In this document: piece by piece, positions 10,629 through 32,703 of the stretch
Numbering within the stretch: the stretch's first letter is position 1
Layout of the letters: the number at the start of each line of letters is the position of its first letter
Source: Gammaproteobacteria bacterium
GTDB taxonomy: Bacteria > Pseudomonadota > Gammaproteobacteria > Pseudomonadales > JADFDG01
Length of the DNA: 64,000 nt
Assembly (NCBI GenBank): GCA_018262975.1
Contig: JADFDG010000004.1
Location: forward strand, 45,961-109,960
Direction of reading: 5' to 3'
Translations under genes and position numbers: made by a program
Notes under the pieces: generated by a model
Told to the model about the DNA's origin: nothing
The model's input: only the letters and a program-made list of their open reading frames with translations
Database searches by the model: none

Positions 10629-10698
10629 CGTAGCGAGGGGCCATGCCCCCGATCACCCCCCCGATCGGGCAAATCGGGGGCATGGCCCCCTCGCTACG
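10629..10698. repeat. Inverted pair of GTAG-type REP-like palindromes (copies 3 and 4)
   Basis: cgtagcgaggggccatgcccccgat ... cgggggcatggccccctcgctacg; the right copy overlaps the stop of the rhombosortase-like CDS. Confidence 0.85.
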
Positions 10699-11880: not shown

Positions 11881-11940
11881 CGTAGCGAGCGGGCCATGCC
11901 CGCGACCGCAAGCAGTCGGGCGCATGGCGCCCTCGCTACG
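11881..11940. repeat. Inverted pair of GTAG-type REP-like palindromes (copies 5 and 6, variant stems)
   Basis: cgtagcgaGCGGGCcatGCCCGCga and reverse-complement cgtagcgaGGGCGCcatGCGCCCga: compensatory stem changes. Confidence 0.85.
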
Positions 11941-18467: not shown

Positions 18468-20167
18468 AACCAACGAGGAATCCGCACGTGCCGTCGCTGT
18501 TGCGTATCGCCCACTTCCTGCTGGCCAGCTTGCTGGTCTCTGCCTGCCACGGCACGCCGCCGGTGGCGGAGCATGCACTCGCGGAGTCACCCGCTCCCGC
18601 CATCGAAACCCTTATCGAGGAGCGGCTGGCCGCACTGGCCACCGGCAACGGGGCGGTCCTGCGCGGCGAACCGCTGGCGGAAGCCGCGGCCCTGCGCGCG
18701 TTCTACACCCGCCGCGCGTTCGCGCCGGCGTGGAGCGATCCGCGCAGCATCGAGGCCCTCGAGCGGGCGATCCGTGCCAGCGAAGTCGAGGGACTCAACC
18801 CGCGCGACTACCACCTGGATGCGTTGCTGGCAATGAAGTCGGAACTGGCCGCGCGGAAGGTTTCGCCATGGACGCGCGCGGAGGCCGACCTGTTGTTCAG
18901 CGACGCGCTGGCACGTCTGGCCAGCCACTACGCATTCGGCAAGGTCGACCCGGCCACGCATGAACCCACCTGGAATATCCGCGCGCCGGACGCCAACCGG
19001 GATGCTGCAGAAGTTCTGGCACGCCTGGCTGGACCGTCGGTGGACACCGCGGTACTCGCCGAGTTGCCGCAACACCCGGCCTACCAGGCACTGCGCCGGG
19101 AGTTGTTGCAGTTGCGCCTGGTCGCCGCCCGTGGCGGCTGGCCGGAGGTTCCCGCGGGCGACACCCTCAAGCCCGGCGCGGACGATCCGCGCATCACCGC
19201 GCTGCGGCAGCGCCTGCGCGCCAGCGGCGACCTCAGCCCGGATGCCGGCATCGACAGCACGCGCTACGACGACACCCTGCGCGCCGCCGTCGAGCACTTC
19301 CAGTCCCGCCACGGCCTGACCGCCGACGGCGCGGTCGGCCGCGGCACCCTGGCCGAACTGAACATGCCGGTCACCGCGCGCATCGACATGCTGCGCGTCA
19401 ATCTCGACCGGGCCCGCGTGCTGCTGCGCGCGCTGCCGGCGCGCTTCGTGCTGGTCAACATCGCCGGCTTCCGCATCTACTACATCGACGACGGCAAGGC
19501 CGTCTGGCAATCGCGCGTGGTGGTCGGCCAGCGCTACCGCGAGACGCCGCTGTTCCGCTCGGCCATCAACTACCTGCAGTGGAACCCCACCTGGACGGTG
19601 CCACCGGGCATCATCGAAAAGGACATCCTGCCGCCGAAGAACAGCGCGGCGGTCATCACCCGCAAGCACCTCAAGGTGTACGACCGCAACGGCAACCGGG
19701 TGAATCCCTGGCAGGTGAACTGGCAGGCACTGCGCAAGAGCCGCGGCTACATTCCGTACACGCTGCGCCAGGATCCCGGCCCGCAGAACGCGCTGGGCCG
19801 CGTCAAGTTCATGTTCCCCAACAACTACTCCGTGTACCTGCACGACACCCCGTCCACCGGCCTGTTCGATGACGATGACCGCACCTTCAGTTCCGGTTGC
19901 GTGCGCGTGGAGGATCCGTTGACGCTGGCCAGGCTGCTGATCAACGACCCGGCATGGGATGACGCGCGCATTGCCGCGGTGATCGCCGGCGGCAACACCG
20001 AGAACCTGGTGCTGAAGGCGCCGGTCCCGGTGCTGCTGGCCTACTGGACGGCGTGGATCGACGAAAACGGCAGCGCGCAGTTCCGCCGCGACGTCTACGG
20101 CCGCGACCCGCTGTGGCTGGCCGCGCTCGACAAGGCCGACACCGCAGGGAGCACGCCGACCCCATGA
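18458..20167 (+). CDS. L,D-transpeptidase (YcbB/LdtD type) with peptidoglycan-binding domain, predicted lipoprotein
   Basis: HDTPSTGLFDDDDRTFSSGCVRVEDP active site; YDDTLRAAVEHFQSRHGLTADGAVGRGTLAELN PG-binding; lipobox LLVSAC. Confidence 0.92.
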   Translation: MAIKPTRNPHVPSLLRIAHFLLASLLVSACHGTPPVAEHALAESPAPAIETLIEERLAALATGNGAVLRGEPLAEAAALRAFYTRRAFAPAWSDPRSIEALERAIRASEVEGLNPRDYHLDALLAMKSELAARKVSPWTRAEADLLFSDALARLASHYAFGKVDPATHEPTWNIRAPDANRDAAEVLARLAGPSVDTAVLAELPQHPAYQALRRELLQLRLVAARGGWPEVPAGDTLKPGADDPRITALRQRLRASGDLSPDAGIDSTRYDDTLRAAVEHFQSRHGLTADGAVGRGTLAELNMPVTARIDMLRVNLDRARVLLRALPARFVLVNIAGFRIYYIDDGKAVWQSRVVVGQRYRETPLFRSAINYLQWNPTWTVPPGIIEKDILPPKNSAAVITRKHLKVYDRNGNRVNPWQVNWQALRKSRGYIPYTLRQDPGPQNALGRVKFMFPNNYSVYLHDTPSTGLFDDDDRTFSSGCVRVEDPLTLARLLINDPAWDDARIAAVIAGGNTENLVLKAPVPVLLAYWTAWIDENGSAQFRRDVYGRDPLWLAALDKADTAGSTPTP

Positions 20168-27795: not shown

Positions 27796-28356
27796 ATGGG
27801 CGAGCACCGACTGACGCGCATCACCACCCGCACCGGTGACGACGGCAGCACGGGCCTGGCCGACGGCACGCGCCTGGCCAAGACCAGTGCGCGCGTCGCG
27901 GCACTGGGCGACGTCGATGAACTGAACGCCTGCATCGGCCTGCTGTGCGTCGCGCCGGGCATCGCGCCGGCGCTGGCGACGCGCTTGCGCGCGGTGCAGC
28001 AGGAACTGTTCGACATCGGCGGCGAACTGTCGCTGCCCGGCCGCGCGCTGCTGGCGCGCGACGCACTGGCCATGCTCGATACCGACATCAGCGAGTGGAA
28101 TGCCACGTTGCCACCGCTCACCGAGTTCGTCCTGCCCGGCAGCAACGAGGCCAACGCGCGCGCGCACCTGGCGCGCACCGTGTGCCGGCGCGCGGAACGG
28201 ACGCTGTGGGAAGTGGCACGGCAGGAGGGCGACGCCCTGTCGCCAGACCTGCCGCGCTATCTGAATCGCCTGTCCGACTGGCTGTTCGTGCTGTCGCGCC
28301 TGCTCGCACGCCAGCACCACAACCCCGAAACCCTCTGGCGCTCCCGCTCGTCGTAG
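27796..28356 (+). CDS. Cob(I)yrinic acid a,c-diamide adenosyltransferase (PduO type)
   Basis: RITTRTGDDGSTGLADGTRLAKTSARVAALGDVDELNACIGLL; CRRAERTLWEVA...YLNRLSDWLFVLSRL. Confidence 0.95.
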   Translation: MGEHRLTRITTRTGDDGSTGLADGTRLAKTSARVAALGDVDELNACIGLLCVAPGIAPALATRLRAVQQELFDIGGELSLPGRALLARDALAMLDTDISEWNATLPPLTEFVLPGSNEANARAHLARTVCRRAERTLWEVARQEGDALSPDLPRYLNRLSDWLFVLSRLLARQHHNPETLWRSRSS

Positions 28357-28423
28357 AGAGGGGGCCATGCCCCCGATGTTTTATCGACGATCAGGAGCAT
28401 CGGGGGCATGGCCCCCTCCCTAC
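28352..28423. repeat. Inverted pair of GTAG-type REP-like palindromes (copies 8 and 9)
   Basis: cgtagagagggggccatgcccccgat ... atcgggggcatggccccctccctac; both arms overlap the stop codons of the two convergent genes. Confidence 0.9.
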
Positions 28424-30027
28424 AGCGTCAGCCGCCGCAGGTCGGCCATTAGTCCGGACAGGTAAGTGATGAAGCGCGCCGCGTCGGCGCCGTCGATCAC
28501 CCGGTGGTCGTAGGACAGCGACAGCGGCAGCATCAGGCGCGGCTGGAACGCCTTGCCGTCCCACACCGGCTTCATCGCCGAGCGCGACACGCCGAGGATC
28601 GCCACCTCCGGCCAGTTCACGATCGGCGTGAACGCCGTGCCACCGATACCGCCCAGCGACGAAATGCTGAACGTCGCGCCCGACATGTCGGCCGGCGTCA
28701 GCTTCTTGTCACGCGCCTTCCTTGACAGCTCGCCCATCTCGCGGGCGATCTCCAGCACGCCCTTGCGATCAGCATCGCGGATCACCGGCACCACCAGGCC
28801 ATCGGGCGTGTCCACCGCGATGCCGATGTGCCAGTAGTTCTTCACGATCAACTTCTCGCCGCCGACGTCCAGCGAACTGTTGAACTTCGGGTACTGCTTG
28901 AGCGCACCGACGCAGGCCTTCACCAGGAAGGCCAGCATGGTGAGTTTCACGCCGTCCTTGAGGCGGGCGTTCTCGCTGACGCGGAATTCCTCGAGGCTGG
29001 TGATGTCGGCGTCATCGTGCTGCGTGACATGCGGAATGTGCACCCAGGCACGGTGCAGGTTCTGCGCGCTGACCCGCCGCAACTTGTTGAGCGCCAGTTC
29101 CTCGACCGGGCCCCACTTGGCGAAATCGATGCGCGGCAATTCCGGCAGGCCACTGCCGGCGCCGACCGCGGCCGGCGCAGCCGGTGCGGACATGCGCTTC
29201 TTTACGTGCGCGTGCACGTCATCGCGGGTGACACGGCCCTTCAGGCCGGTGGCGGCGACTTCGGCCAGCACCACGCCCAGTTCGCGCGCCAGCTTGCGCA
29301 CGGCGGGACCGGCATGGACATCGGCGGCGCTGACCACCGCCGGCGAACCGCTGCCGGATACCGGCGCCGGCTTCTGTTCCAGCTCGCGCGGCTCCGGCTC
29401 GTCGAGCACCGCCACCACGGGCGCCGACGCAGCCTGCGCAACGGGCGCCGACGCGACGCCCGCGGCCTCCAGGGTAACGATCGGTGTGCCCTGCCGGACC
29501 TTGTCGCCCTTTTTCACCAGCAACGCGACGACCTTGCCGGCTGCTTCCGCCGGCACTTCCATGGTCGCCTTGTCGGACTCGAGCACGATCAGCGTCTGTT
29601 CTTTGGCCACCGTGTCGCCGGGCTTCACGCTGACCTCGATCACATCCACGCCCTTGTCGGTGCCGATGTCCGGCACCGACAGCGTGAGCACACCGCCAGC
29701 GACGGCGCCAGGAGCCGGAGCCGGAGCGGGAGCGGGAACAGGAACAGGAACAGGCGCAGTCGGGGGCATGGCCCCCTCGCCACGAACTGCTTGCGCTTCC
29801 ACCACCAGGATCAACGCACCCTGGGTGACCTTGTCGCCCACCTTCAGCGCGATCGATACCACCTTGCCGGCCACCGGGCTCGGCACCTCGACGGTAGCCT
29901 TGTCGGATTCCAGCACGATGAGCGTCTGCTCGGCCGCGACCATGTCACCGGGCTTCACGCTGATCTCGATCACATCAACCGGCTTGTCGGTGCCGACATC
30001 GGGAACCTTTACCTCGGTAGTCGCCAT
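28420..30027 (-). CDS. aceF: Pyruvate dehydrogenase E2, dihydrolipoamide acetyltransferase (two lipoyl domains)
   Basis: Two VLESDKAT(V/M)EVP lipoyl domains, PSBD, catalytic SLSYDHRVIDGADAARF. Confidence 0.97.
   Translation of the reverse strand: MATTEVKVPDVGTDKPVDVIEISVKPGDMVAAEQTLIVLESDKATVEVPSPVAGKVVSIALKVGDKVTQGALILVVEAQAVRGEGAMPPTAPVPVPVPAPAPAPAPGAVAGGVLTLSVPDIGTDKGVDVIEVSVKPGDTVAKEQTLIVLESDKATMEVPAEAAGKVVALLVKKGDKVRQGTPIVTLEAAGVASAPVAQAASAPVVAVLDEPEPRELEQKPAPVSGSGSPAVVSAADVHAGPAVRKLARELGVVLAEVAATGLKGRVTRDDVHAHVKKRMSAPAAPAAVGAGSGLPELPRIDFAKWGPVEELALNKLRRVSAQNLHRAWVHIPHVTQHDDADITSLEEFRVSENARLKDGVKLTMLAFLVKACVGALKQYPKFNSSLDVGGEKLIVKNYWHIGIAVDTPDGLVVPVIRDADRKGVLEIAREMGELSRKARDKKLTPADMSGATFSISSLGGIGGTAFTPIVNWPEVAILGVSRSAMKPVWDGKAFQPRLMLPLSLSYDHRVIDGADAARFITYLSGLMADLRRLTL
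29760..29784 (-). repeat. GTAG-type REP-like palindrome (copy 10) embedded in the aceF coding sequence
   Basis: Reverse complement cgtggcgagggggccatgcccccgac matches the intergenic consensus; in frame it encodes RGEGAMPPT in the first interdomain linker. Confidence 0.8.
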
Positions 30028-30030
30028 GGT

Positions 30031-32703
30031 TCAGCTCCTCACCGGGTCTTTCTTGCCGGGATCGATGCCATAGCGCTTGATCGCGTCGGCCACCAGCTTG
30101 CGCTCGATCTTGCCGTCGTCAGCCAGCGCCGTCAGCGCGGCCACCACCACGAAGCGGCGGTCCACCTCGAAGAACTCGCGCAACTTGCCGCGCGAATCGC
30201 TGCGCCCGAAGCCGTCGGTGCCCAGCACGCGGTAGGTACCCGGTACGAACGGACGAATCTGGTCGGCGAACAGTTTCATGTGGTCGGTGGCCGCAACCAC
30301 CGGGCCACCGGCATCCGCCAGGCACTGCGCCACCCACGATTGCCGCGGCTTCTTCTCCAGCGGGTGCAGCATGTTCCAACGCTCGACGGCCAGGCCGTCG
30401 CGACGCAGCTCGTTGAAGCTGGTCACGCTCCACACGTCGGCACGCACGCCGTAATCGGCGGCGAGCATGTCCGCCGCCGCTTCCACTTCGCGCAGGATGG
30501 TGCCGCTGCCCAGCAACTGCACGACCGGCGCGCCCTTCTTGCCGGCCGGCGCCGCCTTCAACCGGTACATCCCGCGGATGATCCCTTCCTCGGCGCCCTT
30601 GGGCATCGCCGGGTGCGGGTAGTTCTCGTTCATCGCGGTGATGTAATAGAACACGCTCTCCTGCTCGCCATACATGCGGCGCAGGCCGTCCTGCAGGATC
30701 ACCGCCATCTCGAACGCGTAGGTCGGGTCATACGACACGCAGTTGGGGATGGTGGACGCCAGGATGTGGCTGTGGCCGTCCTGGTGCTGCAGTCCCTCGC
30801 CGTTGAGCGTGGTGCGCCCGGCGGTGGCACCGATCAGGAAACCACGCGCCTGCGAATCACCGGCCGCCCAGGCGAAGTCACCGATGCGCTGGAAGCCGAA
30901 CATCGAGTAGTAAACGTAGAACGGGATCAGCGGCTTGTTGTTCACCGAGTACGACGTACCCGCCGCCATCCACGCGGAGAACGCGCCGGCCTCGTTGATG
31001 CCTTCTTCCAGCACCCGGCCCTGCTTGTCCTCGCGGTAATACATGACCTGGCCGGCGTCTTCCGGCTTGTACAGCTGGCCGACCGCGGAGTAGATCGCGT
31101 ACTGGCGGAACATCGCCTCCATGCCGAAGGTGCGCGCCTCGTCCGGCACGATCGGCACGCAGCGCTCGCCGAGATCAGGCAGCTTCATCAGCGCAGTGAG
31201 CATGCGCACGAACGCCATGGTGGTGGACAACGGCCGCTCGGAACCCTCGAGCATCGACGCGAACAGGTCCAGCGACGGCACCGCGAAAGTGTCGGTGCTG
31301 GCCACGCGGCGTTGCGGCAGGTGGCCGTTCAGCGCGGCGCGGTGCTCGCGCAGGTATTTCATCTCCGGGCTGTCTTCCGCCGGCTTGAAATACGGCACCT
31401 TGGGCAGGTCGGCGTCACTCACCGGGATGTCGAAGCGGTCGCGGAATTCGCGCAGGCTGTCGAGGTCGAGCTTCTTGATCTGGTGCGTCTTGTTCACCGC
31501 CTCGCCGGCGCCGGTGCCGTAGCCCTTCACCGTCTTGGCGAGGATCACCGTGGGCTGGCCCTTGTGCCGCACCGCCGCCAGGTAGGCCGCGTACACCTTG
31601 TACGGGTCGTGGCCGCCGCGGTTGAGTTCGTAGATCTGGTCGTCGGTCATGTCCTCGACCATCTTGGCAAGTTCCGGGTACTTGCCGAAGAAATGCTCGC
31701 GCGTGTAGCCGCCACCGTGCATCTTGAACGCTTGGTACTCGCCGTCCACGCACTCGTTCATGCGCTGGCGCAATGCGCCGGTGTCGTCGCGTGCCAGCAG
31801 CGGATCCCAGTGGCGCCCCCAGACCACCTTGATGACGTTCCAGCCGGCACCGCGGAAGGTGCTCTCCAGCTCCTGGATGATCTTGCCGTTGCCACGCACC
31901 GGGCCGTCCAGGCGCTGCAGGTTGCAGTTCACCACGAAGATCAGGTTGTCGAGCTTTTCACGGCCGGCCAGCGCGATGGCGCCGGTGGATTCCGGCTCGT
32001 CCATCTCGCCGTCGCCGAGGAAGCACCACACCTTGCGATCCTCGTCCGGCAACAGGCCGCGATTGATCAGGTACTTCATGATGTGGGCCTGGTAGATCGA
32101 CTGCATCGACGCCAGGCCCATGGACACCGTGGGGAACTGCCAGAAATCCGGCATCAGCCACGGGTGCGGGTACGAAGACAGGCCCTTGCCGTCCACTTCA
32201 CGCCGGTAGCTGTCCAGCTGCTCCTCGGTGAGCCGCCCCTCGAGGAAGGCTCGCGCGTAGATGCCCGGCGCCGAGTGGCCCTGGTAATAGACCAGGTCGC
32301 CGCCGAAGTTCTCGTTCGGCGCGCGGAAGAAATGGTTGAAGCCCACGTCATAGAGCGTGGCGCTCGAGGCGAACGAGGAAATGTGTCCGCCGAGCTCGTC
32401 ATCGCTCATGTTGGCGCGCTGCACCATCGCCATCGCGTTCCAGCGGATGTACGCGCGCAGCCGCCGCTCGGTGTGGTTGTCACCCGGGTAGGCCGGCTCG
32501 TCGCGCAGCGAGATGGTGTTGATGTACGGGGTGTTGAGGCTGTCGAGGCGGACGCCCTTGCGGCGGGCGTACTCGTTGACGCGTTCGAGAAGGAAGCGGG
32601 CCCGTTCGGGGCCTTCCTGGCGGAGGGCGGAGGCGAAGGAATCAAGCCACTCGCGCGTTTCCTGCGGATCGATATCGTCGAACAAGCGGTTTATATCGGC
32701 CAT
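30031..32703 (-). CDS. aceE: Pyruvate dehydrogenase E1 component (homodimeric)
   Basis: DIDPQETREWLDSFASALRQEGPERARFLLERVNEYARRKGV...; full-length AceE. Confidence 0.98.
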   Translation of the reverse strand: MADINRLFDDIDPQETREWLDSFASALRQEGPERARFLLERVNEYARRKGVRLDSLNTPYINTISLRDEPAYPGDNHTERRLRAYIRWNAMAMVQRANMSDDELGGHISSFASSATLYDVGFNHFFRAPNENFGGDLVYYQGHSAPGIYARAFLEGRLTEEQLDSYRREVDGKGLSSYPHPWLMPDFWQFPTVSMGLASMQSIYQAHIMKYLINRGLLPDEDRKVWCFLGDGEMDEPESTGAIALAGREKLDNLIFVVNCNLQRLDGPVRGNGKIIQELESTFRGAGWNVIKVVWGRHWDPLLARDDTGALRQRMNECVDGEYQAFKMHGGGYTREHFFGKYPELAKMVEDMTDDQIYELNRGGHDPYKVYAAYLAAVRHKGQPTVILAKTVKGYGTGAGEAVNKTHQIKKLDLDSLREFRDRFDIPVSDADLPKVPYFKPAEDSPEMKYLREHRAALNGHLPQRRVASTDTFAVPSLDLFASMLEGSERPLSTTMAFVRMLTALMKLPDLGERCVPIVPDEARTFGMEAMFRQYAIYSAVGQLYKPEDAGQVMYYREDKQGRVLEEGINEAGAFSAWMAAGTSYSVNNKPLIPFYVYYSMFGFQRIGDFAWAAGDSQARGFLIGATAGRTTLNGEGLQHQDGHSHILASTIPNCVSYDPTYAFEMAVILQDGLRRMYGEQESVFYYITAMNENYPHPAMPKGAEEGIIRGMYRLKAAPAGKKGAPVVQLLGSGTILREVEAAADMLAADYGVRADVWSVTSFNELRRDGLAVERWNMLHPLEKKPRQSWVAQCLADAGGPVVAATDHMKLFADQIRPFVPGTYRVLGTDGFGRSDSRGKLREFFEVDRRFVVVAALTALADDGKIERKLVADAIKRYGIDPGKKDPVRS

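Follow-up and report, generated by a model that had tools for sequence, protein, structure and literature searches.

A GTAG-type REP element lying in frame within the interdomain linker of aceF in a gammaproteobacterium

Introduction

How does a palindrome that is scattered between the genes of a bacterium come to lie inside the reading frame of one of them? The question is raised by a stretch of 64,000 nucleotides (the window) from a gammaproteobacterial genome, for which an initial annotation had noted, within aceF, a palindrome resembling intergenic elements nearby, and had proposed that a mobile palindrome had been captured there as coding linker sequence. Here we examine the position of this palindrome, the repeat family to which it belongs, its presence in relatives and the occurrence of similar copies in other genes.

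Results

The REP copy in aceF

The following features of the window bear on the question.

28420-30027, minus strand: aceF, encoding dihydrolipoamide acetyltransferase (PDH E2), 535 aa (open reading frame and Pfam)
30031-32703, minus strand: aceE (PDH E1), directly upstream of aceF (open reading frame; identity from a reading of the sequence, not from a family search)
29759-29784, minus strand: solitary REP copy in aceF, CGTGGCGAGGGGGCCATGCCCCCGAC (pattern search of the window)
28352-28424, unstranded: REPIN (inverted REP pair) flanked by two convergent genes (pattern search and open reading frames)
10630-10698, unstranded: inverted REP pair, in which the copy at 10673-10698 (minus strand) is the exact consensus
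11881-11940, unstranded: inverted REP pair whose variant stems still base-pair
59-110, unstranded: adjoining REP pair in opposite orientations

The repeat unit consists of a GTAG head, three bases (NGA) and then GGGGGC-CAT-GCCCCC, that is, a 6-bp stem with a 3-nt loop. The aceF copy, which matches at 24 of 26 bases, has a GTGG head, an intact 6-bp stem and the CAT loop, and its 26 nt are read in frame as R82-G-E-G-A-M-P-P-T90, after lipoyl domain 1 and before the Pro/Ala linker, in the region between two lipoyl domains. The observation in the initial annotation is thereby confirmed, and the segment lies at the place given there. Pfam domains of AceF (two lipoyl, one E3-binding and one catalytic) are present on both sides of the copy, and the coding score of its flanks is 60 upstream and 26 downstream. 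In the predicted structure, pLDDT is below 50 across residues 81-110, the REP peptide included, and the copy is predicted to sit in a disordered interdomain linker.

The likeness to the intergenic elements, which had been put forward with the palindrome itself, holds at the level of the family, with two corrections. The segment at 28352-28377 reads CGTAGAGAGG, one mismatch from the sequence that had been quoted for it, and both of the intergenic copies quoted have an inverted partner (10630/10674 and 28353/28400), which the aceF copy lacks.

We considered avoidance of a stop codon as the reason for the change from GTAG to GTGG in aceF and rejected it, because CGT AGC GAG would give R-S-E and the frame would stay open anyway; the same idea fails elsewhere, TAG being out of frame also at mnmE, metG and an RND gene. 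Some REP heads do serve as stop codons. At 28352-28424, both convergent genes (27796-28356, plus strand, and aceF) end on the TAG of the REP head next to them. Across the sampled part of the genome, 60 of 379 REP heads supplied the stop of a coding open reading frame; of 3000 GTAG sites taken at random, 51 did so.

A REP family with its own transposase

A search of the window at three mismatches or fewer finds the family 8 times, compared with none in 100 shuffles. Across the genome (3.31 Mb in 29 contigs), it occupies 585 places at three mismatches or fewer and 559 at two or fewer, and a reversed-pattern control gave no match in the genome. In a sample covering 72% of the genome (2.39 Mb), we counted 430 copies. 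Of these, 266 belong to head-out inverted pairs, a further 77 to clusters of other kinds, and 87 stand alone, so that 343 of the 430 were paired or clustered. The heads of these copies were GTAG in 385, GTGG in 16 and GCAG in 16. Although about 85% of the sampled DNA is coding, only about 12 of the 430 copies lie in genes, a strong depletion that leaves the family mostly intergenic. The element thus has the features of a GTAG-type REP: an unpaired head 5′ of a stem-loop, a high copy number, and an arrangement in inverted pairs and clusters. Among 391 other genomes of the same order, no member of the family was found except for single stray matches with two mismatches in three of them, and the other genomes of the class sample gave no match at one mismatch; on the evidence of these genomes, the family is restricted to a single lineage.

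The genome contains a single IS200-like Y1 transposase gene (PF01797 match), whose open reading frame carries an HIH motif and YIVANPLRAGL. Inverted REP pairs flank this gene on both sides, and the REP head downstream of it overlaps the gene and supplies its stop codon. By its sequence, this RAYT gene with its flanking REPs is a REPtron, with the anatomy defined for Stenotrophomonas (PMC2817692).

A CGCTCTTC-like stretch often lies 5′ of the REP head (e.g., 18948-18957 in sampled stretch L121 and 1320-1328 in L031), and it may be mobilised together with the REP as one unit. Flanking direct repeats of single REP copies showed no clear excess over shuffled pairs. A 9-nt direct repeat around the REP in mnmE was considered as a target-site duplication and rejected, in view of the lack of a general excess and its resemblance to the CGCTCTTC-like sequence.

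Other genes with in-frame copies

The search of the genome for further copies inside coding sequences that the initial annotation had suggested was run on the sampled 72%. Copies were assigned to genes by hexamer coding scores on both flanks, trained on the long open reading frames of this genome, together with family matches, and the gene calls rest on these two measures in place of a full annotation. About 12 in-frame copies were found at nine loci, aceF included; all nine have a coding signal in the same frame on both sides, and in most of them the site is covered or flanked by family matches. The other eight are as follows.

mnmE (NCBIfam equivalog): REP in a loop of the G domain that separates NKxD from SA
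metG: REP in a variable linker
mnmC: a whole inverted pair in frame, between the methyltransferase and oxidoreductase parts (L124 2975-3037)
RND pump (permease) gene: in-frame REP
gene with DUF1214 and a sulfotransferase domain: REP between the two domains
glycosyltransferase-2 gene: in-frame REP
thioredoxin-like gene: in-frame REP
alpha/beta-hydrolase gene: three in-frame REPs, one GTGG and two GTAG (L199 15922-16021)

The host genes are unrelated, and most of the sites fall in loops or in linkers between domains. Copies at the starts of genes (L194, L220 and L260) were excluded as probably lying outside the true gene. Near the C-terminus of mutS there is a degraded REP-like match with four mismatches and a TTAG head (L225 1658), which may be the relic of an old insertion or a chance match; this match and the copy in L263 were left uncounted, as the controls themselves give 1-17 matches at four mismatches.

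Comparison with relatives

In the aceF homologues that were compared, all from outside the same family (relatives, the best 61% identical, and named proteobacteria), the linkers are unrelated at the place of the REP, and the segment is absent from every relative whose linker was inspected. Had distant relatives that lack the repeat shared the segment, this would have spoken for a chance or ancestral linker sequence; we looked for such sharing among these homologues and saw it in none. The aceF linker varies too much in length and sequence among the relatives for any gap to be drawn, and that of the present gene is no longer than theirs (59 residues in the aligned segment, against mostly 49-85). 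The comparison, made with relatives outside the family, neither dates nor delimits the insertion in aceF. In mnmE, three relatives (L278, L280 and L281) show a 10-residue in-frame gap over RGEGAMPPT, and this peptide was present in none of 19 relatives.

Discussion

How might the palindrome have entered aceF? We consider it very probable that the aceF segment is a GTAG-type REP that was spread by the RAYT, inserted in frame in a tolerant linker and kept there as a near-neutral sequence. The proposal that a mobile palindrome had been captured is upheld by the association of the family (more than 500 copies) with a RAYT, by the absence of the segment from aceF of the inspected relatives and by the eight other loci with in-frame copies. 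In the sequence of events that we envisage, the RAYT encoded by this genome would have dispersed the REP copies, one of which would have inserted into the aceF linker between the lipoyl domains with a net length that preserved the frame. The copy would have been retained because such a linker tolerates almost any sequence, and it is presumably transcribed and then translated into nine residues of the linker, with a near-neutral effect.

Might the aceF linker, which is of low complexity and rich in Pro and Ala, in a genome whose sampled part has a G+C content of 66.6%, simply have come to look like a REP by chance? The match at 24 of 26 bases and the absence of matches in the shuffles leave next to no probability for this reading, and the reversed pattern, with no match against 421 real ones (three mismatches or fewer, 2.39 Mb), refutes it together with them. 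A further alternative, which is improbable, is that the REP in aceF has been kept for a function, either as an mRNA hairpin tuning the PDH operon or as a DNA site for a protein such as gyrase, IHF or the RAYT. The stem is intact, the local hairpin has a folding energy of -12.6 kcal/mol, and REPs elsewhere have been proposed to act as RNA or DNA elements in the text of PMC3733652. However, the fold of the surrounding 65 nt is unexceptional (z = -0.8, with 41 of 200 shuffles folding equally well), which lends little support to the intragenic mRNA hairpin suggested by the initial annotation, and we rejected a strong mRNA structure at this site. In addition, the in-gene copies occur in unrelated genes, mainly in linkers, a distribution that tolerance fits better than shared regulation.

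The proposed near-neutral insertion of a RAYT-spread REP agrees with what has been described for this class of repeat. Di Nocera et al. 2013 reported GTAG REPs within ORFs of several species, single or as dimers, and suggested that they may be neutral, their sites being flexible linkers or loops (PMC3733652). As here, the stem-loops lie in ORFs, and the hosts there include repair genes and tRNA synthetases; aceF, mnmE and mnmC are not mentioned in the parts of that paper examined, and its text, figures aside, does not contain the exact core of the present repeat (PMC3733652). The parallel with the palindromic elements of Rickettsia (RPE), which had been offered for the aceF palindrome, is apt, and it had already been drawn for in-ORF GTAG REPs in the 2013 study (PMC3733652). 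Both are short palindromes translated in frame in unrelated proteins. According to the same text, RPE-4 and RPE-6 belong to a CGTC superfamily without a known dedicated transposase, unlike the present element with its GTAG head and RAYT, and RPE-1 is longer than the REP here (PMC3733652). With the REPtrons of Stenotrophomonas (PMC2817692, PMC8266576), the present system shares a GT(A/G)G head, a GC-rich stem, a short loop, a high copy number, inverted pairs and a transposase gene bracketed by inverted REPs; it differs in its stem and loop, GGGGGC-CAT-GCCCCC, and in the NGA between head and stem. REPs within genes are thus a known but seldom documented phenomenon, and this REP family and its host genes were not met with in the parts of the literature examined.

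Why, then, should the aceF copy have a GTGG head? Published cleavage work assigns a guide role to the REP head (PMC8266576): in S. maltophilia, mutation of its third base abolished cleavage, and in Marinomonas, a GTGG head shifted cleavage to CC (PMC8266576). This raises the idea, which we regard as rather unlikely and which would add to the insertion of a RAYT-spread REP without replacing it, that GTGG copies form a retargeted or immobilised sub-type in which the third head base is the guide base, such copies either inserting beside C instead of T or becoming uncuttable again once in a gene. GTGG heads occurred at four of the eight in-gene loci scored (three of seven without aceF), a count that omits the hydrolase gene, with its mixed heads, and the weak mutS copy, compared with 11 GTGG to 377 GTAG outside genes; the excess within genes has p = 0.0011 without aceF. 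Some sampled stretches had been picked for holding GTGG copies, a bias that is equal inside and outside genes. Nearly every copy has a pyrimidine as the base preceding its head, which is T in 68% and C in 29% of GTAG copies but C in 69% and T in 31% of GTGG copies (p = 0.0019, the best of 24 positions). This base is complementary to the third base of the head, and the two covary as the guide-sequence model predicts. In O. terrae, according to the text of PMC3733652, one REP family has mostly GTGG heads, and this species also has the most in-gene GTAG repeats. Against the idea, the pattern was recognised post hoc from 16 GTGG copies with 24 positions tested, GTGG heads occur outside genes too, and the same pattern could arise from a founder sub-family or from how old the in-gene copies are. 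Still more doubtful, in our estimate, is the fuller form of the idea, in which GTGG copies, guided by their heads to insert beside C, would gain easier entry to coding DNA that is rich in GC, or would be uncuttable there.

As a separate observation, the five in-gene GTGG copies all read GTGGCGAG, with C as base 5 (L192 8156, L197 12308, L224 9341, window 29762 and L199 16000); outside genes, this base is A in 53% and C in 42% of copies.

If the guide reading of the GTGG heads were true, this retargeting would have left a group of enzymes whose linkers contain a REP in frame, and the covariation between the third head base and the preceding base would be a genome-scale trace of the pairing between the REP guide and its target. 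The lead makes the guide-sequence model of REPs testable by comparative genomics and cleavage in vitro. Regardless of the head, a mobile palindrome appears to have become protein repeatedly in this organism, with PDH E2, MnmE, MetG and MnmC all carrying REP-coded residues at tolerant sites, and the set of in-gene copies constitutes a natural experiment on the positions at which proteins tolerate insertions.
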